A stretch of DNA of 32,557 nt from a virus: the IMG/VR virus record IMGVR_UViG_3300025120_000276, positions 1 to 32,557 of that record; one strand, given 5' to 3'. Positions 2,179-25,367 of this stretch are shown in pieces. The notes beneath the pieces are model-generated. The model searched no databases. It was given only the letters and a program-made list of their open reading frames with translations, and was not told where the DNA came from. Made by a program: the position numbers and the translations under genes. Position 1 is the first letter of the stretch. The number at the start of each line of letters is the position of its first letter.

Positions 2179-2505
2179 ATGAATCACATATTTTGTTTTA
2201 ACTGTGGGAACAAGATTCAATACAATCTATCCAAGCCCAATTTCTGCACAAGTTGTGGAACTTCTCTGAAGACGGGCGAATCCTCTGCTTCAGTGGCTGC
2301 CCCCACTAAGCAAATTAAAAATAATAAAATCCAACCACTCTCCGAAGATGAGACAGATGCAGAGTTCGTGCCTAACATTAATAGGATAGAAGTGGAAACT
2401 GAACAATTTGGTGGTTCATTCACCATAGGTTCTCTGGCAGGAGAGAAAACTCAGCCAGACTTCAAAGAAAAAACAACCTACGATATCGATGAGTTCACCA
2501 AATAA
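2179..2505 (+). CDS. Zinc-ribbon protein
   Basis: A 108-residue protein. Its N terminus is a treble-clef or zinc-ribbon motif: CFNCGNK at residues 6-12 and CTSCGTS at 23-29 give two CxxC pairs separated by 13 residues. The rest is acidic and low in complexity, probably disordered. Small zinc ribbons of this type often bind nucleic acid or RNA polymerase. The stop codon overlaps the start of the sigma-like gene (TAATG), so the two are translationally coupled, and I infer that this protein may work with the sigma factor. No enzymatic motif is visible. Confidence 0.7.
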   Translation: MNHIFCFNCGNKIQYNLSKPNFCTSCGTSLKTGESSASVAAPTKQIKNNKIQPLSEDETDAEFVPNINRIEVETEQFGGSFTIGSLAGEKTQPDFKEKTTYDIDEFTK

Positions 2506-3200
2506 TGTCAGACAAGAAAATATACGAAGACTTTTCGGATCTGATAAACATAGCCATCAAAAGACAAAGGTCTAGGTGGCGATTGGACGCAGTTAAATGG
2601 TTTGACTTCGAAGATGTAGAACAGGTAATCAAATCTCACATATATGTCAAATGGCACATGTGGGATCAAGAACGTCCAATCGAGCCGTGGTTAAATAGAG
2701 TTATAACAAACAAAATGTGGAACCTCATAAGAAACCATTACGGCTCTTATGTTAAGCCCTGCGTTTACTGTCAATACGCTAGAGATATGAACTGTTTGTT
2801 CACGCCATCCGGGTCTCAAGACACAACATGTGCAGAATACGCAAAATGGGCAAAGAAAAAGAAATATGGCTTAGAACTTAAGACCGCAACCTCTATTGAA
2901 GAAGCTCAGATCCAAGTCGGGAGTAAAATGGATGATTACATCGACTATGAACATTATTTTAAAAAATTAGACGTATTTATGAAGAAAAAGTTGTCTGAGC
3001 AACATTATACGGCTTACAAGATGATTTTTTTTGAAAAATACACAGAAGAGGAGGTCGCCCTATTTATGGGTTACAAAATAAGTGCTTCGAATGCAAAATT
3101 GGGATACCGACAGGTGAAAAACCTGAAACGCAAGTTTTACGAGGTAGCAGCTGGGATAATCAAAGAACAAGATATTTTTGGACATGAAACTGACAAATGA
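2505..3200 (+). CDS. Sigma-70-like factor with Cys4 insertion
   Basis: A 231-residue protein built like a two-domain (ECF- or gp55-type) sigma factor. Region 2-like sequence covers about 33-80: DFEDVEQ, then the pattern DQERPIEPWLNRVITNKMW, matching the classic 'D-P-x-R-P-F-x-x-W-L-x-x-I-x-x-N' run. Region 4-like helix-turn-helix sequence covers about 163-215 (LSEQHYTAYKMIFFEKYTEE then NAKLGYRQVKNLKRK). Between them Cys86, Cys89, Cys97 and Cys109 form a probable zinc-binding insert. Phage sigma factors such as T4 gp55 redirect host RNA polymerase to late promoters, and this one is a good candidate for recognising the GTGTAA motifs. No SD is visible; translation is probably coupled through the TAATG overlap with the zinc-ribbon gene. 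Confidence 0.75.
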   Translation: MSDKKIYEDFSDLINIAIKRQRSRWRLDAVKWFDFEDVEQVIKSHIYVKWHMWDQERPIEPWLNRVITNKMWNLIRNHYGSYVKPCVYCQYARDMNCLFTPSGSQDTTCAEYAKWAKKKKYGLELKTATSIEEAQIQVGSKMDDYIDYEHYFKKLDVFMKKKLSEQHYTAYKMIFFEKYTEEEVALFMGYKISASNAKLGYRQVKNLKRKFYEVAAGIIKEQDIFGHETDK

Positions 3201-4233
3201 ACAAGAAGGGTTCCTAAGGGAGAATTCAAGTAAAATACTGGACCTGATCGAGCTAACTAGAAAATGTTTCGACGATGACAGCTTAGACGGGAGATCTAAG
3301 GAGGGCCGTTCCGTCCGGAAGTTTTTGTCTGAGAACGGAATTACTTACAAGACTACTAGGCGCAAACCAGCTAAAAAAATTGAATTCACAGAGCAACAAA
3401 AGGAATTCATCATGGATCAGGCTGAAGATGGCCTCTCATCACTTGAAATTGCTAAATTGATCTTTCCAGAAAAGGATGTAAGACCGCTAAGTAACGAACA
3501 GCGTCAAGTTTTAACACATATTCAGGAAACCAACCCTGATTTTTTGCCATCTCAGGACGGAGGTGCCGTAAATGACTATTCTGCTCCTAAAAGTTCTAGC
3601 CGAATTGTAAAAAAGATAAACGATTCGACAGGAATAGGGTTAGATGACTCAAAATTAAACCGACAGAAGCAAATTTGCGTCAACAAACTGGGAATCAACC
3701 TGAGCAACAGCCGATTCTTAAAAATAATAAATAACTATTTAAACAAACAGGACCGTGAACTGTTTGAGCAGGAGTTCGTTCGTCTTACTTGGGATAAGCC
3801 TGATTTGACCGCTGACGAGCTTAACCTCTATTTGAATGTCTGTAAAGAGGTTATCAACCTAGAGGTCGTCTCAGCGCATCTGAACAAGCTTAACGAGATG
3901 TTTGACGTTGCTGATGACCAGACTGAGATGACTGTCCGGCTAGCAGAGATCATCAAAGCAAAATCACAAGAATATCATCAATGTGAGACCCGAATTGAGA
4001 ATTTAACGAAAAAGCTCCAAGGGGACCGTGCGGAGCGAATGAAGAAGAATCAAAAAGACCATGCCTCATTTCTCGCCATCGTTCAGATGTTCCAAGAGGA
4101 GGAAGAGCGTCAAACCATGATAAAAATGGCCGAGATGCAAAAAAAGATAATCAAAGAAGAGGCTGAGCGTTTAGAAGGTATGGCGGAGTGGAAAGCCCGT
4201 GTATTAGGAATTAGCAAAGACGATGCAATTTGA
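3184..4233 (+). CDS. HTH/coiled-coil protein, small-terminase candidate
   Basis: A 350-residue hydrophilic protein. About residues 65-95 contain an HTH-like stretch (FTEQQKEFIMDQAEDGLSS, then EIAKLIFPEKDV). The C-terminal third, about 255-335, is a strongly charged Glu/Lys/Arg-rich helix likely to form a coiled coil. A DNA-binding N terminus plus an oligomerising helix, encoded just ahead of the nuclease and large terminase, suggests the small terminase or another packaging DNA-recognition protein. No homology is certain from sequence alone. I chose ATG 3184 over an upstream in-frame TTG at 3178. It overlaps the sigma gene by 17 bases and the next gene by 11, so translation is coupled. Confidence 0.6.
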   Translation: MKLTNEQEGFLRENSSKILDLIELTRKCFDDDSLDGRSKEGRSVRKFLSENGITYKTTRRKPAKKIEFTEQQKEFIMDQAEDGLSSLEIAKLIFPEKDVRPLSNEQRQVLTHIQETNPDFLPSQDGGAVNDYSAPKSSSRIVKKINDSTGIGLDDSKLNRQKQICVNKLGINLSNSRFLKIINNYLNKQDRELFEQEFVRLTWDKPDLTADELNLYLNVCKEVINLEVVSAHLNKLNEMFDVADDQTEMTVRLAEIIKAKSQEYHQCETRIENLTKKLQGDRAERMKKNQKDHASFLAIVQMFQEEEERQTMIKMAEMQKKIIKEEAERLEGMAEWKARVLGISKDDAI

Positions 4234-5239
4234 ATGTAAAGAATGTGGCAAAGAGTTTAGTAGTCAACGCAGCCTACACACTCACCTTAAGGCTCATGAT
4301 ATGTTCATGGGTGAATACTACGTCAAGAACTACCCACGCCATGATAAGTTGACGGGCAAGCCTATAGAATTCAAGAGTGTAAAGCAGTATTTTTCATCCA
4401 ATTTTAATCGCCCTGCAAACATGTTAAAGTGGTGCAATACAGCACCAAAACATGAGGCAAAGGAGTTTGTATTGGAAGAGCTTAAAAAAAGACTTGAGGA
4501 AAAGGAACTTAGCCTAGCTCCATCTAGTCTATATCTAAAAACTGCTAAACTCCCTACCCTTGATATCATCAAGGATCTATTTGGCAGTTATGGTCTTTTG
4601 TGTAAAGAGCTAGGGGTGGAGCCAGCGTATAAGGAGAAATTGTGCGATGAATTTTTTGAGGATTATAATGATGCAGATATCTGTATTGACACTAGGGAGA
4701 ACAAACCCTTGAAGTTCAGCAAATCTCAGAGCATGAAGTTAGATTTTGGGGATTACACATTAACCCCCAATACATATACTTTCACACATGTAGAGAGAAA
4801 ATCCTTTAATGACTTCGCTACCACTGTCACCAATGGACATGATAGGTTTCTCAGGGAGCTTGATCGGTGCAAAAGTGTTGGATGTTATATGTTTATTGTA
4901 GTCGAAACCAACTTCAGTAAACTTGGGAAGACTAACAATTTCGCATACAAAAGGTTCAATCTTGATTATGTGTTTAATAAGATGAGGAGTATCGAAGCCC
5001 AATACGCTGACTGCTGCCAGTTTGTATTTAGCGGGTCTAGGAAAGATAGTCAGGAACTTATACCAAAAATTCTTTGTTTAGGCAAGAAGTTATGGAGAGT
5101 TGACCTGCAGTACTTTTGGAATAAAATTTTAGAAAAAAATGAGTTGGACAGAGGGGAACCAGAAACTATACAAGAAGTTTCAGAACATAAACCAAGAAAT
5201 ACTTTCAAAAGAAGGTTATATCGAAGAAGGCGAGGCTAA
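4223..5239 (+). CDS. C2H2 zinc finger fused to an XPF/ERCC4-type nuclease
   Basis: A 338-residue protein. Residues 5-25 are a textbook C2H2 finger: C5-x2-C8-x12-H21-x3-H25 with hydrophobic core F12 and L18. A middle domain with a basic helical stretch follows. About residues 153-290 carry an ERCC4/XPF nuclease pattern: DTRE at 156-159, DFGDY at 174-178, and VERKSFND at 190-197, matching the family signature GDx(n)ERKxxxD. The C terminus is very basic (RRLYRRRRG). XPF-family nucleases cut branched DNA. Located between the small-terminase candidate and terminase, it could trim replicating concatemers before packaging or act in recombination. The last 101 bases overlap the terminase gene in another frame. 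Confidence 0.8.
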   Translation: MQFECKECGKEFSSQRSLHTHLKAHDMFMGEYYVKNYPRHDKLTGKPIEFKSVKQYFSSNFNRPANMLKWCNTAPKHEAKEFVLEELKKRLEEKELSLAPSSLYLKTAKLPTLDIIKDLFGSYGLLCKELGVEPAYKEKLCDEFFEDYNDADICIDTRENKPLKFSKSQSMKLDFGDYTLTPNTYTFTHVERKSFNDFATTVTNGHDRFLRELDRCKSVGCYMFIVVETNFSKLGKTNNFAYKRFNLDYVFNKMRSIEAQYADCCQFVFSGSRKDSQELIPKILCLGKKLWRVDLQYFWNKILEKNELDRGEPETIQEVSEHKPRNTFKRRLYRRRRG

Positions 5240-7004
5240 GCTTCTTTTATATAAGTTTCTCAGGGAGAATCCGTCTTTTACATCCGAATTATTCACAGGT
5301 GTAAAATTATTTCCGTTTCAGCATATGGCTATTAAGTCCATGATGGAAACTGACTACTTCTTAGGGATATGGAGTCGGGGTATGAGTAAATCATTCTCTA
5401 CTGCTGTATTTGCCATACTCGATGCTATAATGAACCAAGGTGTTCAAATAGGTATTATCTCCAAGTCTTTTCGGCAATCTAAGATGATCTTCAAGAAGAT
5501 AGAGGATATCGCAAAAAGCCCAAAGGCTGAATTTTTATCTCAGTGTATCACAAGGACATCGAAGATGAATGATGAATGGGTTATGGAGATAGGCACTAGC
5601 AGTATCAGAGCCTTGCCGTTAGGCGATGGCGAAAAGCTTCGTGGTTTCCGTTTTCAAAGGATGATTATCGACGAGCTTCTCCTCATGCCTGAGAAAATAT
5701 ACAATGAGGTTATTATGCCATTCCTATCTGTTGTCGAAAACCCCACAGAAAGGCAGGAGGTATACGACCTTGAAACAAAGATGATAGAGGAAGGGGAGAT
5801 GGTTGAAGACGAAAGGACCCGTTGGCCAAACAACAAAATTATAGGTTTGTCCTCCGCATCTTACAAGTTTGAGTATTTGTTTAAGCTTTATCAGCAGTAT
5901 GAAAATTTAATTCTGAATGAAAATAAACAAGATGGCGCTCACAGAGTGATTATGCATTTTAGTTACGATTGTGCGCCTGCTCAGTTGTACGACCAAAACT
6001 TAATCAATCAATCCAAATCAACAATGAGCCAAGCTCAGTTCGACCGGGAGTTTGGAGCTTTGTTCACTGATGACAGTTCAGGGTATTTCAAAGTGAGTAA
6101 AATGGCGGGTTGTACTTTACCAGATGGAGAAGGTCAGTGCGTTGAGGTTGTAGGCGACCCTAAGTCCAAATACATACTGGCATTTGACCCTTCTTGGTCC
6201 GAGAGTGAAAGCTCAGACGATTTTGCGATGCTTTTGGTAAAGGTTCACCCAGAGACCCGCAAAGGGACTGTAGTGCATAGCTACGCCCTTTCTGGGACTA
6301 GTCTGCAAAACCACATAAAATACATGGCTTACTTACTGATGAACTTTAACATAGAAATGGTTGTGGGTGACTACAATGGAGGTCTGCAGTTTCTTAATGC
6401 ATGCAATGAAAGTGGCACATTCAAAAGGTTGAACCTAAATATGGGCCAAGTTGATGCTGAGTTAGACAATCAAAAGGAGTATGTTAAAAACTTACGTAAA
6501 TTAAAAAATAATATAAATAAAAAAGAAAGGAAGTTCGTATTTCTCAGAAAACCTAGTTCTGTTTGGATTAGATTTGCTAACGAGAATCTACAAGCCGCAT
6601 TCGATCATAAGCGCTTGTACTTTTCTGGTGCCGCCATGGATGACAACTACAACATGCAGAGGAAGGCTAATATCCCCATAGATAAACTGAAGTTTTTAAG
6701 GAATCAAGATATGGAAGAAAAAAACAAAGGGGCTAGGATGATTGATTTCGTAGAACACCAAAGAGATATGATGGACCTCATAAAAGTTCAATGCGCCTTG
6801 GTGCAAGTCACAACTTCCCCACAAGGGACCCAAAGTTTTGATCTCCCTCCAAACCTACGGAAACAGAAAGGGGCTGACAAGGCAAGGAAGGACTCCTATT
6901 CCGCAGTGGTTCTAGGGAATTGGGGCATGAATGTTTATTTCGATATGCTTGAAGATAAAGGTGACGATGTGCAAACGACTTTCACCCCAATGTTTATTTC
7001 TTAA
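5139..7004 (+). CDS. terL: Terminase large subunit
   Basis: A 621-residue packaging motor. The ATPase domain has a variant Walker A, SRGMSKS, at residues 79-85 and Walker B RMIIDE at 174-179, followed by a coupling motif (IIGLSSASYKF). The C-terminal RNase H-like nuclease shows AFDPSWSESESSDD with D350, GDYNGG with D411, and a late acidic segment (MIDFVEHQRDMMD). The length is normal for a T4/lambda-type large terminase. The enzyme translocates DNA into the prohead through the portal and cuts the concatemer. The start is the first ATG, in an AAAAAATG context without Shine-Dalgarno. It lies 101 bases inside the upstream nuclease gene, an unusually long overlap, but the N-terminal residues look like genuine protein. 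Confidence 0.95.
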   Translation: MSWTEGNQKLYKKFQNINQEILSKEGYIEEGEAKLLLYKFLRENPSFTSELFTGVKLFPFQHMAIKSMMETDYFLGIWSRGMSKSFSTAVFAILDAIMNQGVQIGIISKSFRQSKMIFKKIEDIAKSPKAEFLSQCITRTSKMNDEWVMEIGTSSIRALPLGDGEKLRGFRFQRMIIDELLLMPEKIYNEVIMPFLSVVENPTERQEVYDLETKMIEEGEMVEDERTRWPNNKIIGLSSASYKFEYLFKLYQQYENLILNENKQDGAHRVIMHFSYDCAPAQLYDQNLINQSKSTMSQAQFDREFGALFTDDSSGYFKVSKMAGCTLPDGEGQCVEVVGDPKSKYILAFDPSWSESESSDDFAMLLVKVHPETRKGTVVHSYALSGTSLQNHIKYMAYLLMNFNIEMVVGDYNGGLQFLNACNESGTFKRLNLNMGQVDAELDNQKEYVKNLRKLKNNINKKERKFVFLRKPSSVWIRFANENLQAAFDHKRLYFSGAAMDDNYNMQRKANIPIDKLKFLRNQDMEEKNKGARMIDFVEHQRDMMDLIKVQCALVQVTTSPQGTQSFDLPPNLRKQKGADKARKDSYSAVVLGNWGMNVYFDMLEDKGDDVQTTFTPMFIS

Positions 7005-7049: not shown

Positions 7050-9020
7050 ATGGCGAGGAAATATAAAAAGAAATCAGATTACTGGCAGAAGTTTAACAAA
7101 GAACAGAGTCTTTCGGATTTGGTGCAGCCAAGTCAGCCAGAAGAGTCTTACTCACCGGATCTAGTAGGGGAGGCGTTTTACACATCTGACGCTTCTTATG
7201 GTCATGTTTCAAAAGCTAGAACAAATAGCACACCAACAAATAGAGCCACCAGAGTAAATGCCGCTGCTGTAAGAACTACGATAGATAGGTTCTCCAGTAT
7301 TCGGAAAGGTTTACTGCCGTATGAGTATGCAAGTGACGGAGTGCATGTGCGTGAGGGCATAGAGCTTTGCCAGAAGGCATACGCTAATGTGGCAGTATTC
7401 AGGAATGCTATAGACATCATGTCTGAGTTCGCCAATACCGATGTCTACCTTGAAGGTGGTACGAAGAAGAGCCGGGAGTTCTTCACAGAGTTTTTCAAAA
7501 GAGTTAACTTAATAAACCTCAAGGACCAATATTTTCGTGAATATTACCGCAGTGGCAACATATTCATATACCGTTTTGACGGCGAGTTTAAAGCTGATGA
7601 TTATGCTAGGCTTATGAACCAAGTAGGTGCTATAAACCCTAGCGCCAACAAAATACCTGTCAAGTATGCTGTACTAAACCCATTTGATATAGTCGCTAAA
7701 AGAGCTTCTACTTTTAACATTGGAGCCTATGAGAAAGTCCTTTCTGAGTATGAGCTTTCTAGACTTCAGAACCCTCAAACAGAAGAAGACCAGCAAATTT
7801 ATGACTCATTGGACGAAGATCTAAAAAAGGTAGTAGATGATGGAGGTTACTACACAGACGGCGTTAAGATCAAGCTAGATCCGCAACGCCTGAGCTTTTC
7901 CTTCTACAAAAAACAAGATTACGAGCCATTCGCAATTCCATTCGGGTATCCAGTCCTAGAGGATATCAATGCTAAGCTTGAGCTTAAGAAGATGGACCAA
8001 GCCATCACTCGTACTGTTGAAAATGTAATTCTCCTCATCACCATGGGGGCTGAACCAGAAAAGGGCGGTATTAATGGGAACAACATCAACGCTATTCAAA
8101 ACTTATTTAAGAACGAATCAGTAGGTCGTGTTTTGGTATCTGACTATACAACCAAAGCAGACTTCGTGATTCCAGACCTTAATAAGGTGCTTGGACCTGC
8201 TAAGTATGAAATACTTAATCAAGATATTAAGCAAGGTTTACAGAATATTGTCTTAGGTGAAGAGAAGTATAATTCAACACAAGTAAAGGCCCAGATATTT
8301 ATAGACAGGCTCCAAGAGGCACGGCAATCATTCATGAACGACTTTTTGCAGAAAGAGGTTAAGAGAATCGCCAAGAGTCTTGGTTTCAAATCTTACCCTA
8401 CCGTTTGCATGAAAGATGTTGACATGCGTGACGAGGTACAGCTTATGCGTGTAGCTACTAGACTTATGGAAGTTGGAGTACTTACTCCTCAACAAGGCAT
8501 GGATATGTTCCACACAGGGAGGTTCCCCAACTCTGAAGACATCGCCCCTGCACAAAAAGACTTTGTAGAAAAAAGAAAGGAGGGTTACTACAATCCTATT
8601 GTAGGAGGTGTGCCTATGATTGAAGACGAGGTCTCTGTAGACCCAAAAACTAATAGCACTCCCAAGGCTGCTGGTAGGCCCAATGATACCACAACGACAG
8701 AAGCTAACTATTCCCGTTCAAACATCCAAACTACCATATATGAAGTAGAGGCGCTTATTTCACAAGCCAAGGGTCAAATGAAAGAAAAGCTTGATTCAGA
8801 GGAGCTTGACAAGCAGCAGAGCGATATGGTTACAAAACTTTGTGAGTCTATCGTGTGTGCTTCTGACAAGAAGAATTGGGGACAAACTTTATCAGCTTGC
8901 ATACAAGACTTTAACGCCATCGAAGATTTAAATACATTAGACAGCATTTTAAGTGTAAGCACTAAGCATAACTTGGATGTTTATGCATCCGCAATTTTAT
9001 ATCATAGCAATGAAAATTAA
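7050..9020 (+). CDS. Portal protein
   Basis: A 656-residue protein placed directly after the large terminase and before the protease/scaffold and capsid genes, the standard place for the portal. It has a basic N terminus. A mixed alpha/beta core spans about 100-480, including repeated YxxExE-like helices and the long segment around 420-450 resembling the portal stem/clip helices. A Thr/Asn-rich linker (about 535-560) and a charged C-terminal helix follow. The portal forms the dodecameric ring through which DNA enters and leaves and on which the prohead is nucleated. No catalytic motif is expected. The call rests mostly on context, size and general resemblance to myovirus-type portals. Confidence 0.85.
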   Translation: MARKYKKKSDYWQKFNKEQSLSDLVQPSQPEESYSPDLVGEAFYTSDASYGHVSKARTNSTPTNRATRVNAAAVRTTIDRFSSIRKGLLPYEYASDGVHVREGIELCQKAYANVAVFRNAIDIMSEFANTDVYLEGGTKKSREFFTEFFKRVNLINLKDQYFREYYRSGNIFIYRFDGEFKADDYARLMNQVGAINPSANKIPVKYAVLNPFDIVAKRASTFNIGAYEKVLSEYELSRLQNPQTEEDQQIYDSLDEDLKKVVDDGGYYTDGVKIKLDPQRLSFSFYKKQDYEPFAIPFGYPVLEDINAKLELKKMDQAITRTVENVILLITMGAEPEKGGINGNNINAIQNLFKNESVGRVLVSDYTTKADFVIPDLNKVLGPAKYEILNQDIKQGLQNIVLGEEKYNSTQVKAQIFIDRLQEARQSFMNDFLQKEVKRIAKSLGFKSYPTVCMKDVDMRDEVQLMRVATRLMEVGVLTPQQGMDMFHTGRFPNSEDIAPAQKDFVEKRKEGYYNPIVGGVPMIEDEVSVDPKTNSTPKAAGRPNDTTTTEANYSRSNIQTTIYEVEALISQAKGQMKEKLDSEELDKQQSDMVTKLCESIVCASDKKNWGQTLSACIQDFNAIEDLNTLDSILSVSTKHNLDVYASAILYHSNEN

Positions 9021-18833: not shown

Positions 18834-21800
18834 ATGCCACTTCAATTACAAGTAAGACAAACAGGATTAGAGAAAAGCATTCAAGAAGGCATGAAAAAGG
18901 CCGGAAGGAATCTTAAGCTCAACTTAGGGAATACCCGAAACATTGATGCCCTGTCTCAACCATTAGGTAGGTTGACTGGAAAGGCTGATGAATTTACCAA
19001 ATCTATGGAAGCTGCTAACGCTCGTGTGTTAGCTTTTGGTGCTTCTGTGGGTGTTATCGCTGCCGTTACTAAAGGTATGCAGGAGTTGGTCAGGACGACT
19101 ATAGAAGTCGAAAAGAGTTTAGCTAATATCAACTCCATTCTCCGTCAAAGTGATGCTCAGATGAGCAGCTTCAAGGATACGCTTTTCGACGTAGCTAGGA
19201 ATACAGAACAAACCTTCTCATCTGTTGCCGAAGCAGCTCTGGAATTATCTCGTCAGGGTCTTAAGGCTGAAGAGGTTACTAACAGACTAAATGATTCCCT
19301 TATTCTGTCTAGGCTCTCAGGAATGAGTGCCGCTGACTCTGTAGCAGGTTTAACAGCCGCTATCAACTCTTTTTCTAGTGCTGGTATCACCAGTGCCGAA
19401 GTTTTGAATAAGATATCCGCTGCTGCCGCCAGTGCTGCTGTTTCGGACAGGGATTTAATTGAGGGCTTGAAGCGATCTGGAGCTGTTGCTGTCTCTACCG
19501 GGGTGGAGTTCGATCAGCTAGTTGGTATAATAGGAGCTTTGCAAGAAAAGACAGCTCGTGGTGGAGCCGTTATCGGTAACTCATTAAAAACTATCTTTAC
19601 GAGAATACAAGACATTGATAAACTTAACAGTTTGCAGGATCTTGGTGTAGAAGTCACGAACTTGCAAGGAGATGTTTTGTCTGCCAACAAGGTGATTGAG
19701 AACCTAGCTCCAGTATTCGCTAAATTGGACCAAGCTTCCAAGGTTAACTTAGCGGACAACCTTGTGGGTAAATTTCAAATTGCTCCATTCCTATCTCTGC
19801 TTGAACAGTACAATGAAGAGGTAGTAAGGAGCAACGAAATAGCCAAAACTTCTTTCGGAGCTACAAACGAAGCTTACCAAAGAAACATAGCCCTGAACAA
19901 TACTTTATCTGCAGCTTTGAACAAAGCTGTTGTTAACCTTAAAGAACTAGGGAACACACTTGGGGAGATAGGCGTGACAGACAACTTAAAAAATGTACTT
20001 GGTTTCTTTAACAGCATAGCTGAGAGTTTACAAGGTAGTTTGGACGGAGAGGGTGCTGGAAGTACTTTTGCCAAGGGGTTAGTAAAGGGCATAGGGGCTA
20101 TTTTAAGTGGACCCGGTCTAGTTTTACTAGGGGCTATTGTCACTAAATTAGCATTTGGTTTCGTCAAGTTCGGAACATCTTCCCTAAAAACATTTTTTGG
20201 TTTGAATCAAGCCGCAAAAGAACACGCTAATTTACAAGGACAAATCACAGCAGCTTTATTAAATGATTCTTCCATAAGGCAGGACATCTTGCATATAGAG
20301 AATAAAAGCATCAGTGTAGAGGAGAAGCGCAAACAACAAGCTGAAGCTCTTACTACAGCAATGAACGCTCAGCTTACGGTGATGAAGCAGATGCAGTCAA
20401 TCTCCAAGGGTATAACCCCGAGTGTAGCAGCGAATACCAAAGCTGCACGTAGAGCTTCTGGGGGATTTTTACCTATCGGAGCTGAGAGTTCTGATATAGC
20501 TCGTGGCGTGGGTGGCGCACCTTCTTCTGCTAAACCTGTTGTTATACCTAACTTTGCTTTTGGTGGAGGCAAAAGAGGAACTATGGTTGCTAATAGTAGT
20601 GAATATATTGTTCCTAATTATGCTAATGGTGGGGATGCTATTTTTAATCAGAGCATGGCTTCCTCAATGGGCCTTCCTGCTAATGCTAAAAAGGTGAGAG
20701 CTGCTAGCGGGTATATACCAAATTTCGCAAAGCCCGAAAACATGAATATGTCAGCCGTGTTGAGTAAGATCGGTGGGAAGCGTTTTCAAGAGAAGTTAGC
20801 TAATGGAAAGCTCACAAAGGAAGATAAAGCTATTTTAGCCCAAAAAGACAAGTTGGAAGCTGCTGCAGTAGGTAAAAGATCTTACATGGCTAACAGCAAC
20901 CCTAAATCAATACTTCTTGTACCTAATCACAAAGTTCCTTTCAATCTTGATGGAGCTGACCACCCGTTCCAATCACCTTACGCCTCCAAGTTGAATGGTG
21001 AAATAGATTTTTTCGAAGGGGCTGCGGCAGGGATTGATCCAGACTTAAAAAACTCTGAAAGTGAAGATGCTAGGAAGTTGTCAGGACTTGTGGATTTGGA
21101 CGATAAGATTGCTAAAAACTTAGCCAAAGGAGTTAATGATATATTCTCAGAGTTTAAAAATGCTGTCGGTTTCAAAACCGATCCAAACGTTGTAACCAAA
21201 GACAATATAAAGGATACAATGGAATCGGGTGGCCCCGGCGCTTTTGGCGCTATCAAAGGTGCCACCTTTGAGGCTTTGATGCAAGCCATTAGTGGGGGAG
21301 TTTCTCAAAAGGCTGCAAAAGGTGGGGGGGAACTTGATGTTGTTTTTTCTAGGGACCAATCTGGTTATTTAGAAACTGTCTTTGGTATCAAAGACAAAGG
21401 GTATAAATTTGCAGATTTTAAAAACTCTTTGGGGCAAAAAGGTAAGTACGTTAGACAAGTTGTTGATAATGTTAAAGGCAATATTAATGTCAGCAAAAAC
21501 GCTAAACTTTCTACAAGTGGGAAAAAAGGAAATGCAGCTTCTGGTTACATTCCAAATTTCGCAGACCCTCTTCAAGATGCTATCGGAAGGGAGCAAACTG
21601 CCGGGTTGCCTGTTAGTCAAATTAGAATAAATCAGAGTGGAAAGCTTAGAAACTCGCAAAACCCGATGGGCCTTGCTGTTACTAATACTAGAGACGAACC
21701 TACTGGAGCTATACCTGCCGCCAGAGGATTTATACCCAATTTCTTTAATTTAGAACAAGCTCGACAGAACTTAAGTGATAAACAAATAGCTGCTGGTTTT

Positions 21801-24800
21801 GGTGGCCAAGAAGCTAAGGACGAATTAAAAAAGTTGGGAGCTTCTGCTAAGAAAACTTCAAAATCTTTTAAAGAGGCAAAAAAAACAGTAGATATCAACA
21901 GAAAAGGTCAGACCGACTTGACAGGTGTTATATTCGGTGTCGGGGCAGGTCTAACAGCTCTAGAGGCTGCCACAGCAGGTAGCGAAAGCGCTTTGGCCAG
22001 ATATACATCTATAATTTCAGGGTCTCTAGCGAGTATTTCTAATTTTGCTTTTGCTGGCAAGGCTGTCAGTGATATGGGTAACCAAATGAAGCTGTCTGGC
22101 GGCAAATTCAAAGGGGCTATAGGAGGAGCTGTTGGCAAGTTAGGTGCTTACGGAGCTGCCATAGGAGCCGGTATAGAAATTTTTAAGTTAGGGTCGAGTT
22201 TGTATGACGAGGCTTCTGGGGCTAACGAAAGGGCCACTACAGCCCTTGCTTTTTTAACAGATGCTACAAAGGATCTTTCTAACTCATTCAGCAGTCTAGA
22301 CGCTGTGCTGAAAGACAAGATTAACAATCAAGTTGACGATATATTGAATGCACCAGTCAGATCTAATAGTCTTAGTGGGGATTTTAGAAATATAAAAGAG
22401 GAGTTCCTCTCAATGATTGGAATGTCCGATTATCGTGGCGAGTTAGGGATGACAAAGATGGGTTTTGAGACTGATGATTTAGAGCAAGGTGTAACTAGCG
22501 CATTGAAAGAAATGAGAGGTCTGGGCTTTTCGTCTAAATATTTAAAAGGTAGGCTTTCTGAATTCGGCGATAAGGTTGATTCAGAAGAGGCTACTTCTCT
22601 TTTCAAGGAGTTAGCTAAAGCGGCGAAAGACACTGAAGTCTACAGTAAAAAACTTGCTGAGTTAAGTGATATAGATGTGCAAATGCTTACTGAGCAGCAA
22701 AATAACAAGGATCAATTTGGAACAAACCTAACCACAGATCAAAGGTTCCAACTTGCCGAGAAGGAAGTTGAAAGGAGGAAGAAAGAGGACAAAAAGGGGA
22801 GGGTTGAAATGGGAGAAGCTATCGACCTTATAAACTTGAAGAACGCCAAGGCTGGTATATCCGCTGCAGTAGAGTTAGCCAAGCTTAAACTTCAGGCTAA
22901 AACTACAGAAGAGAGGAGCTTAGAGATGGGCGAAGCTGCTGGCACTTTAACTAGGAACCAACTCAAAGAACTAAAAGAATTTGTGGCTTTGAGAAAACTT
23001 GAAAATGAACTTTCTATAGCAAATTTGAGCGTGATAGGGGAGCAGACTACAGCCCTCAAAGGTGTCAAAGGTAAGACTAAAGAAGTTTCTGATCTAACAG
23101 AAACACTAAATAGGTCCATAGAGGATGGGAACTTTTCTGTAGAAGACAGAGAGGAAGCTTTGGGTAAAATCAGTAAAATATTGGCAGCTGGCGAGAAAGT
23201 CGCAGAAAAAGAGTTGTTGGCTCTGCAAAAGATCCTACTAAAACAGGAGGTTCTTACTAATGAAAAGAGAAAGCAGCTAGGTTTAGACATTAAACAAGCT
23301 AATATTCTCGAAGACAATGCTAACCGGGTGGCTGATGCTAGAGCTGACAGAGGGTTGGGTTCTGCTGGTGATTTTAATGAAAAAGATTTAAAGCTTCAAA
23401 AGGAGATATTGGACCTACAAAAAACACAAAGATCTCTTTCTGCTGGATCAAGTAACACAAGATTTGATGCTTTTGGGCAGGAAAGGAACTTTAGGGGTTC
23501 TATAGAATCTGTCAATAGGCAGATTGCTGAGAAGCAAGGAGAAAGGTCTAGGCTTTCAACCATAAAAAGTTTTAGGGAGATGCCTTTAAGCAATAAAATA
23601 ATTTCTAGGTTGCAAGACCCTTACAATAATGGTAATTCATTAGAGAAAAGTCTATTAAAGAGCTTACCCACAGAAACAGACCCTTTGAAGATCGGATCTA
23701 CCTTGAGGTTGCTTAGTGAAGCTGGAGGACTGGAAGGGGAAGAGAAGACTAATTTCGAAAAGTCTATACAGGGTTTTGAAAAATCTTTACAAGACAATAC
23801 GGAGCAAACTGCCAATAGTGTGGATGCTACTAAAAATCTTACACTTACACTCGCTCAAACAGGGGCGCAAAACGTTGCCAGAGCCAGTGTGTTGGAAAAA
23901 TTTTCGAAAAGTGAAGCAGCTGACCTAAAAAGACTAGGGGAAGCTCAACAAAAAACAGGTATTAGTGGACTACCTGAAGATATCGCTAGAGAAGCTAAAA
24001 TGAAGAGGGGTTTTAGGCAAAGGGTTACTGAGTCTACAGACACAAGCCTTGAAGCCTCAGATAAACTAAAAGATAATTTGGTTAGCGCATCTAGGCAGTT
24101 TGTAATGAATATGGATGAAGCCTTTAGAAATGCTATTAGTAGTTCTGACAGCTTGGGGGACGCTTTGCTTGAAATAAGCAAGCAGTTTTTGAGTGACATC
24201 ACTAGTGCTTATAGTAAAAAATTCTTGAATAAAGCTTTTGGCGATGTTTTCGGAGTTAAAGACAAAGCTACAGGTGGCTTTATTTCTGGAGGCTCTGGCC
24301 ACAAAGATGATGTTCCTGCTATGCTGATGGGAGGTGAATTTGTTATGAGAAAGAGTGCTGTTCAAAAGTATGGCGCAGGATTCTTTAACGCTTTAAATAG
24401 TGGAGGTGTTCAAGGTTATGCTTCTGGCGGTTCTGTAAGGCAGAGGAGGGATAAAGAAGGTTTATTTAGAACCCCATCATCTTCTTCTGGTTACATAAGC
24501 GGGGTATCAGACCTTATGTCGTTTGCAACTCAGTCTCCCAATAGAATGGGTGGAGACAGCTTTGTGAGTGGCGGTGCCACAGCCGCTTTCTTAGATCCTG
24601 AGAGCGCCAGACTAAGTATGTTTGGGCGCAGAAGTAGTCAGCAATTCGGGAAGGTGCAAGATGCCAAAAAACAAGCTTTTGATTTAGCGGTATCAGAAAT
24701 GGGGCAGATGGACCAAGCTAGAATAGCAGGCAAGGAGTCCAGCAGTCAGTTCTTCAAAGATATCCTGTCAGCTGGTATAAGTGCTGGTCTAGGAGGGTTG

Positions 24801-25367
24801 GGCGCTGACATGTTCAAAGGTAACAAATTCTTGACAGCAGCTTCAGGCTTTGGATCTAATCTACTAGGAACTGCAATCACCGGGGGAGGGGCAAGTGGTT
24901 TTGGAAACTTTGGTGCCGGGTATGTTAGCTCAATGCAGGAAAGTGGCTCTAAAGGATTATTTGATTTCTTAAAATCCCTGTTCTCTAACAAACAAGCTAC
25001 AGGTGGAATGATATCAAGCTCCACGGGGGTGGATACTGTACCGACTATGCTATCAGGAGGAGAGTTTATTATGAACGCTTCTGCAACCAAGAGATTAGGT
25101 GCTGGAAATTTACAAGCTCTTAACTCAGGGTCTGGTGGAGGTGGAGATAATTCTCAGTTGGTAGGAAAACTAGATGAGCTAATAAGTGCTACTGAAGATG
25201 CTACTGGTGGCGAAATTAATATCACTATAAATAGCGAAGGAAAAGAAAACGTCAAGACCTCTGAGGGTGCTTCTGAAGATCAGAAGAGGCTATCAGAAAG
25301 AATTAAAACAGTAGTTAAGCAAGTCATCACAGACGAAAAGAGATTGGGAGGCCAACTTAGGAAGTAA
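18834..25367 (+). CDS. Tail tape measure protein with embedded domain
   Basis: A 2177-residue tape measure. Residues 45-350 match the TP901-type tape-measure core: long helices, LFDVARNTEQTFSSVAEAAL, then AADSVAGLTAAINSF and GGAVIGNSLKTIFTRIQDI. A hydrophobic segment lies at about 419-445. From about 540 the chain turns Gly/Ser-rich and carries repeats of a G-Y/F-I-P-N-F-A motif, which bracket an insert at 633-903 with a nuclease-like residue pattern. Helical, charged rod sequence follows (about 1000-1800). Near the C terminus a Gly-rich unit occurs twice (about 1812-1857 and 2055-2100). The protein sets tail length and passes into the host envelope at infection. It has AAAGG before the ATG. 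The stop overlaps the next start (TAATG). Confidence 0.93.
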   Translation: MPLQLQVRQTGLEKSIQEGMKKAGRNLKLNLGNTRNIDALSQPLGRLTGKADEFTKSMEAANARVLAFGASVGVIAAVTKGMQELVRTTIEVEKSLANINSILRQSDAQMSSFKDTLFDVARNTEQTFSSVAEAALELSRQGLKAEEVTNRLNDSLILSRLSGMSAADSVAGLTAAINSFSSAGITSAEVLNKISAAAASAAVSDRDLIEGLKRSGAVAVSTGVEFDQLVGIIGALQEKTARGGAVIGNSLKTIFTRIQDIDKLNSLQDLGVEVTNLQGDVLSANKVIENLAPVFAKLDQASKVNLADNLVGKFQIAPFLSLLEQYNEEVVRSNEIAKTSFGATNEAYQRNIALNNTLSAALNKAVVNLKELGNTLGEIGVTDNLKNVLGFFNSIAESLQGSLDGEGAGSTFAKGLVKGIGAILSGPGLVLLGAIVTKLAFGFVKFGTSSLKTFFGLNQAAKEHANLQGQITAALLNDSSIRQDILHIENKSISVEEKRKQQAEALTTAMNAQLTVMKQMQSISKGITPSVAANTKAARRASGGFLPIGAESSDIARGVGGAPSSAKPVVIPNFAFGGGKRGTMVANSSEYIVPNYANGGDAIFNQSMASSMGLPANAKKVRAASGYIPNFAKPENMNMSAVLSKIGGKRFQEKLANGKLTKEDKAILAQKDKLEAAAVGKRSYMANSNPKSILLVPNHKVPFNLDGADHPFQSPYASKLNGEIDFFEGAAAGIDPDLKNSESEDARKLSGLVDLDDKIAKNLAKGVNDIFSEFKNAVGFKTDPNVVTKDNIKDTMESGGPGAFGAIKGATFEALMQAISGGVSQKAAKGGGELDVVFSRDQSGYLETVFGIKDKGYKFADFKNSLGQKGKYVRQVVDNVKGNINVSKNAKLSTSGKKGNAASGYIPNFADPLQDAIGREQTAGLPVSQIRINQSGKLRNSQNPMGLAVTNTRDEPTGAIPAARGFIPNFFNLEQARQNLSDKQIAAGFGGQEAKDELKKLGASAKKTSKSFKEAKKTVDINRKGQTDLTGVIFGVGAGLTALEAATAGSESALARYTSIISGSLASISNFAFAGKAVSDMGNQMKLSGGKFKGAIGGAVGKLGAYGAAIGAGIEIFKLGSSLYDEASGANERATTALAFLTDATKDLSNSFSSLDAVLKDKINNQVDDILNAPVRSNSLSGDFRNIKEEFLSMIGMSDYRGELGMTKMGFETDDLEQGVTSALKEMRGLGFSSKYLKGRLSEFGDKVDSEEATSLFKELAKAAKDTEVYSKKLAELSDIDVQMLTEQQNNKDQFGTNLTTDQRFQLAEKEVERRKKEDKKGRVEMGEAIDLINLKNAKAGISAAVELAKLKLQAKTTEERSLEMGEAAGTLTRNQLKELKEFVALRKLENELSIANLSVIGEQTTALKGVKGKTKEVSDLTETLNRSIEDGNFSVEDREEALGKISKILAAGEKVAEKELLALQKILLKQEVLTNEKRKQLGLDIKQANILEDNANRVADARADRGLGSAGDFNEKDLKLQKEILDLQKTQRSLSAGSSNTRFDAFGQERNFRGSIESVNRQIAEKQGERSRLSTIKSFREMPLSNKIISRLQDPYNNGNSLEKSLLKSLPTETDPLKIGSTLRLLSEAGGLEGEEKTNFEKSIQGFEKSLQDNTEQTANSVDATKNLTLTLAQTGAQNVARASVLEKFSKSEAADLKRLGEAQQKTGISGLPEDIAREAKMKRGFRQRVTESTDTSLEASDKLKDNLVSASRQFVMNMDEAFRNAISSSDSLGDALLEISKQFLSDITSAYSKKFLNKAFGDVFGVKDKATGGFISGGSGHKDDVPAMLMGGEFVMRKSAVQKYGAGFFNALNSGGVQGYASGGSVRQRRDKEGLFRTPSSSSGYISGVSDLMSFATQSPNRMGGDSFVSGGATAAFLDPESARLSMFGRRSSQQFGKVQDAKKQAFDLAVSEMGQMDQARIAGKESSSQFFKDILSAGISAGLGGLGADMFKGNKFLTAASGFGSNLLGTAITGGGASGFGNFGAGYVSSMQESGSKGLFDFLKSLFSNKQATGGMISSSTGVDTVPTMLSGGEFIMNASATKRLGAGNLQALNSGSGGGGDNSQLVGKLDELISATEDATGGEINITINSEGKENVKTSEGASEDQKRLSERIKTVVKQVITDEKRLGGQLRK
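20535..21746 (+). repeat. IPNFA motif repeats inside the tape measure
   Basis: Within the tape measure the short motif recurs: IPNFA at residues 571-575, IVPNYA at 592-597, GYIPNFA at 626-632, GYIPNFA at 904-910 and GFIPNFF at 965-971. A degenerate GFLPIG lies at 544-549. Each is preceded by small residues (Ala, Ser, Gly, Arg) in most copies. The bases encoding the copies differ, so the repeat is conserved at protein level. Confidence 0.85.
20730..21542 (+). other. Cargo-like PD-(D/E)XK-nuclease-like domain in the tape measure
   Basis: Residues 633-903 lie between two GYIPNFA motifs and differ in character from the surrounding rod: a soluble, globular composition with little Gly/Ser repetition. 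A possible PD-(D/E)XK active-site pattern is visible: Glu813 in a helix (GATFEALMQAI), Asp835 in a strand (GGELDVVF), and Asp861-x-Lys863 in a second strand (YKFADFKNS). The spacing of 26 residues between the two acidic strands is somewhat long for the family. The assignment is by eye and needs structural comparison. Confidence 0.5.

Follow-up and report, generated by a model that had tools for sequence, protein, structure and literature searches.

Introduction

XPF-type nucleases are best known as repair enzymes of eukaryotes and archaea, and XPF relatives need a tandem helix-hairpin-helix domain, (HhH)2, for DNA binding and dimerisation. HNH endonucleases of the HK97 gp74 type are encoded beside terminases. 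The (HhH)2 domain defines the XPF family, in which catalytic members cut via the motif GDXnERKX3D, and catalytically dead ERCC4 domains also exist (PMC3905867). In phage T4, endonuclease VII (gp49) resolves DNA branches, frees packaging that is arrested at them, and binds the portal (PMC9958956; PMC3485210).

Here, we examine 32,557 bases of viral DNA (hereafter the window; IMG/VR record IMGVR_UViG_3300025120_000276, classed as a linear fragment). An earlier note on this DNA had proposed that the open reading frame at 4223..5239 (plus strand; 338 aa plus stop; ATG at 4223, stop at 5237-5239) joins a C2H2 zinc finger to an XPF/ERCC4-type nuclease, and both parts of the fusion were matched above the Pfam cut-offs. 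Literature searches found no description of such a finger-ERCC4 fusion.

Domain structure and conservation of the nuclease

The nuclease domain occupies residues about 150-290 (4670..5092, plus strand), as placed by Pfam and by structure comparison. Pfam ERCC4 matched residues 167-282 (E = 1.4e-8; 35.2 bits against a curated cut-off of 24), and PHROG 3490, 'ERCC4-type nuclease', was also matched (E = 7e-12). The window copy of the active-site motif GDXnERKX3D is complete (G176, D177, E191, R192, K193 and D197; 4748..4813, plus strand), with D156, R158 and E159 upstream of it (4688-4699, plus strand), and the signatures that had prompted the proposal are all present, as DTRE (156-159), DFGDY (174-178) and ERKSFND (191-197).

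We identified 231 candidate stretches in IMG/VR that encode relatives, 80 of which were fetched. Together with a terminase-anchored set (a few contigs are in both), these gave an alignment of 162 rows (126 distinct relatives, from marine virus contigs), with pairwise identities going down to 36%. The gene is under strongly purifying selection: whole-gene dN/dS was 0.04-0.08 in six close pairs, and conservation held separately for finger, middle region and nuclease wherever the ratio was computable in those pairs. Eight related contigs of 54-203 kb each carry one detected copy, two matches in one contig being a single copy with an insertion. A scan of genome contigs returned only two, binned in MAGs of different phyla, one as Verrucomicrobiales and the other as Flavobacteriaceae. 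Separately, the 203 kb contig encodes a protein with PSCyt2/PSD1 domains (PF07583, PF07587; L092 4263-6530), which we take to be typical of Planctomycetota and Verrucomicrobiota and which is possibly a hint at the host.

The earlier note had tied its nuclease assignment to a structural match with XPF and to the ERKxxxD residues of homologs, and both bear it out. An AlphaFold2 model built with 25 family sequences (mean pLDDT 88) retrieved archaeal XPF and Hef first in Foldseek (E = 2e-5 to 1e-4), and VIA-align superposed residues 150-288 on Aeropyrum pernix XPF (2bgw; Z 12.2, rmsd 2.5 A, 124 residues). Among homologs, R192, K193 and D197 are present in 154/154 rows with those columns, and G176 and D177 in 153/153. 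No substitution of any of the four zinc ligands or of the catalytic R, K or D was seen in the 126 distinct relatives wherever the region is covered. Of the 154 rows, 39 have E at residue 191 and 115 have D, a conservative change. This replacement of the middle acid in most relatives, and the precedent of catalytically dead ERCC4 domains (PMC3905867), are what might be expected of a scaffold that binds DNA without cutting it, as ERCC1 or EME1 does; however, the G, D, R, K and D positions of the motif do not vary in the family, unlike in non-catalytic members, and the window copy keeps ERK in full, making a scaffold role exceedingly improbable.

The (HhH)2 domain is absent, with no HhH family matched in Pfam and, in the model, a single helix (295-310) followed by a disordered basic tail. 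One subclade (L110, L117, L118 and L124) carries approximately 60 extra residues in the ERCC4 domain after a QF(I/V)F(T/S)G motif.

At the N terminus, residues 3-25 (4229..4297, plus strand) matched Pfam zf-C2H2_6 above its curated cut-off (E = 4.8e-7). The pattern CX2CX12HX3H, with predicted ligands C5, C8, H21 and H25, fits the C2H2 consensus CX2CX12HX3-5H with its conserved F and L core: C5 and C8 occur in 145/145 aligned rows covering them, H21 and H25 in 147/147, F12 in 137/145 and L18 in 145/147. The base-reading positions hold small residues in the family alignment (S/T/N at 14, G/S/A at 17, A/M/I at 20), a pattern more in keeping with a grip on the DNA, and with the reading of its shape, than with recognition of a particular site. 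C2H2 fingers had been described as typical of eukaryotes and rarer in phages, but they are not confined to eukaryotes, and weak resemblance to the beginning of this N-terminal region was seen in PHROG 6283, in a protein of an E. coli phage and in one of a Halogranum virus. An unannotated protein of Escherichia phage IME392 (AXY86088.1; L106 3001-3657) has a similar zinc-binding start, then HGLTPHEYY; its C-terminal half appeared GIY-YIG-like by eye, and Pfam gave no confirmation.

Between the finger and the nuclease lies a helical region (residues 27-148; 4301..4666, plus strand), delimited from the AlphaFold model and the family alignment. Its two tyrosines at 32-33 (YY) are invariant, a P..(F/Y)G.Y..C..xGV.P motif lies around 111-134, and residues 1-148 were modelled confidently (pLDDT 90). 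This middle region is a probable DNA-binding part, and the finger and helical region together probably grip DNA. The homing-endonuclease-associated repeat (HNH_repeat, PF18780) gave weak matches in the middle region of 7 of 25 members (best E = 0.019). Against the PDB no confident match to the middle region was found; the top entry was DsrC at Z 5.0, a background level within the range of common arrangements, and we claim no relationship to it. An alignment also suggested a middle domain shared with halovirus HRTV-27, which we rejected because the HRTV-27 translation shows no such region.

Position of the nuclease gene beside the terminase

Annotation of the window with Pfam and PHROG placed PhoH at 1414-2136, followed by an ORF encoding a zinc ribbon (2179-2505), one weakly matching sigma-70 region 2 (2505-3200), and a conserved neighbour directly upstream of the nuclease (3178..4233, plus strand; 351 aa). 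This neighbour has a weak HTH signal near residues 43-67 and no confident family in Pfam or PHROG searches; that it is a small terminase subunit is a guess. Downstream lies the terminase large subunit (5139..7004, plus strand; Pfam Terminase_6N, 1.5e-6; PHROG 2, 1.4e-21), then a portal candidate (7050-9020) named from its place and length, without a family match. The nuclease had been described as lying between packaging genes, which is accurate for its downstream side, whereas the upstream ORF lacks a confident family. A very long ORF (18834-25367; 2177 aa), in which an ASGYIPNFA-like motif recurs several times, is probably the tail tape measure. Searching annotated phages at the DNA level with the window's first 25 kb gave zero matches, as did tblastn against annotated phages with the ORF at 3178-4233 and a capsid-region ORF. 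PADLOC matched nothing, so a known defence system is unsupported.

The earlier note considered such a fusion next to the terminase unusual and suggested a synteny survey in relatives. Anchoring on the terminase, we found that in 74/74 loci having at least 342 nt upstream (five loci with 323 nt or less were left out) the nuclease precedes it in the same orientation; in 67 of the 74, the end of the nuclease frame lies no further than about 35 nt from the terminase start. Anchoring on the nuclease, the terminase was downstream in 78/80 loci, the two exceptions having little or no downstream sequence (cut off, or under 1 kb). In seven loci the two genes are 0.2-1.2 kb apart, and some of these gaps hold other genes. 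The window itself shows an overlap of 101 nt between the two genes, occupied by a disordered, arginine-rich C-terminal tail (residues 309-338; 5147..5236, plus strand; pLDDT under 50). This basic tail of about 30 residues occurs in the window's subclade and is absent from more distant relatives; it was gained in that subclade by overprinting in a second frame over the terminase start (5139-5239). Synonymous change is low in the overlap, as expected of a region read in two frames.

Such a distribution bears on whether the gene is a mobile (homing-type) endonuclease, or a nuclease against host DNA or competing phages. The similar start of AXY86088.1 (finger, then YY helix), with a C-terminal half GIY-YIG-like by eye only, is compatible with this idea. 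However, the gene is present in every terminase locus with enough upstream sequence, with no empty site, and its single copy per contig, core operon location and strong purifying selection make a mobile or hostile nuclease very unlikely. For cutting of the host chromosome, which the earlier note had raised, we found no positive support.

Some relatives encode other proteins near the nuclease, all recognised by eye: a subtilase-like serine protease with a C-terminal hydrophobic segment between nuclease and terminase (L140 2946-4004, L139 563-1618, L167 2781-4004, L180 2893-3981) and, beside the nuclease, proteins like a SET-domain protein (L064 6070-6774), a 2OG-Fe(II) oxygenase (L078 5429-6004) and a GDP-mannose (sugar-nucleotide) dehydratase (L079 4895-5980). 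These identities led us to reject the inserted neighbours as mobile endonucleases.

We also considered whether the nuclease is a site-specific accessory of the terminase, in which the finger and middle region would find the packaging site and the ERCC4 domain would make or help the first cut, as the HNH partners of some terminases do. Consistent with such a role are its DNA-binding-like N-terminal parts, the weak resemblance of its middle region to a repeat associated with homing endonucleases, and its constant location, with a conserved ORF on one side and the terminase gene on the other. The terminase, however, looks complete: its acidic residues are invariant at DPSW (D351) and GDYNGG (D412) in the family alignment (A3), where nuclease acids are expected, so that the terminase probably cuts DNA itself and a separate packaging-site nuclease would be less needed. 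Moreover, a single finger with small base-reading residues would offer little specificity, and XPF enzymes recognise DNA shape, which leaves an accessory of this kind improbable. We hold to the same low expectation a related proposal, that the nuclease is a fixed third part of the terminase module, the finger and middle region recognising the packaging site or the motor and the ERCC4 cut starting packaging or clearing DNA at the portal.

Predicted role in packaging

Our preferred reading, to which we assign a probability of roughly 0.55, is that the protein acts as a structure-specific resolvase, removing branches from concatemers so that they can be packaged, like T4 endonuclease VII. As a metal-dependent, structure-specific endonuclease, it would cut Holliday junctions, Y-forks and flaps in replicating viral concatemers, and the cleared concatemers would then be packaged by the neighbouring terminase motor. 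The N-terminal finger and helical region would hold the DNA, replacing the missing (HhH)2. In this reading we infer catalysis, zinc binding, junction specificity, timing, and any contact with terminase or portal.

Among the eight related contigs of 54-203 kb, searches for RuvC, RusA, RecU, endonuclease VII and endonuclease I gave no match, an absence that is suggestive but weak because the contigs may be incomplete and such models can miss divergent members, as did the Pfam ERCC4 model in four of seven contigs carrying the nuclease gene. Control genomes or T4/T7 gave the expected matches in these searches. The 203 kb contig has a match to PHROG 452, 'endonuclease', but the protein is a staphylococcal-nuclease homologue and was rejected as a resolvase. 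An XPF-type enzyme fixed beside the terminase, where no other recognised resolvase was found, would fit a gp49-like job. Operon position alone is no proof of a packaging role, and two points speak against a resolvase: the (HhH)2 domain is missing, and in 115 of 154 relatives D takes the place of the catalytic E.

A general replication, recombination or repair nuclease (a flap or fork cutter), placed beside the terminase through shared late expression or history, would accord with the repair and fork-processing work of characterised XPF relatives, and in two halovirus records a minimal ERCC4 protein is encoded close to an HNH gene, surrounded by small hypothetical genes. What makes this rather unlikely is the near-fixed place directly upstream of the terminase, kept among relatives down to 36% identity while other cargo varies. 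Of the two modes of action offered by the earlier note, sequence-directed and structure-directed, the former is not favoured given one finger with small base-reading residues, and packaging-linked DNA processing appears the best reading.

If the protein does debranch DNA for packaging, another fold would do the job assigned to endonuclease VII and to RuvC/RusA/RecU-like enzymes. In any case, a conserved XPF-type gene is fixed beside the packaging motor in a widespread, large, uncultured group of marine phages, in a domain arrangement absent from the annotated phages searched, and it could serve as a marker for that group.

Comparison with known systems

The phage protein shares with XPF, MUS81 and Hef the nuclease fold over residues 150-290 (Z 11-12) and the GDXnERKX3D motif, its closest folds being A. 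pernix XPF (2bgw, 2bhn) and the Pyrococcus furiosus Hef nuclease domain (1j22, 1j24). It differs from them in lacking (HhH)2 and any detected helicase domain, in having an N-terminal C2H2 finger and helical region, and in occurring in tailed phages beside the terminase. A search of 50,697 annotated phage records gave ERCC4 matches in haloviruses only; HRTV-27, HRTV-25, HSTV-2 and HF2 likewise carry ERCC4 in a tailed virus, with 26-42% identity over parts of the domain. However, the two halovirus proteins examined are short (145 aa and 156 aa), that of HRTV-27 has neither finger nor middle region, and in the stretches examined of two records the genes, in the surroundings described above, lie away from the terminase. 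In plasmids, only three Rhodococcus ERCC4 proteins matched, without the finger region. ASFV EP364R-type ERCC4 proteins, from eukaryotic viruses, have a matching predicted fold, a likeness drawn from structure comparison only.

With T4 endonuclease VII the proposed shared role is branch resolution for packaging, whereas its fold is unrelated to ERCC4 and its Pfam family was not found in the eight related contigs. The HK97 gp74-type HNH gene likewise adjoins the terminase but encodes an HNH rather than an ERCC4 fold. The nuclease domain is therefore a known one, but its architecture is new, as is its conserved place in a packaging operon.
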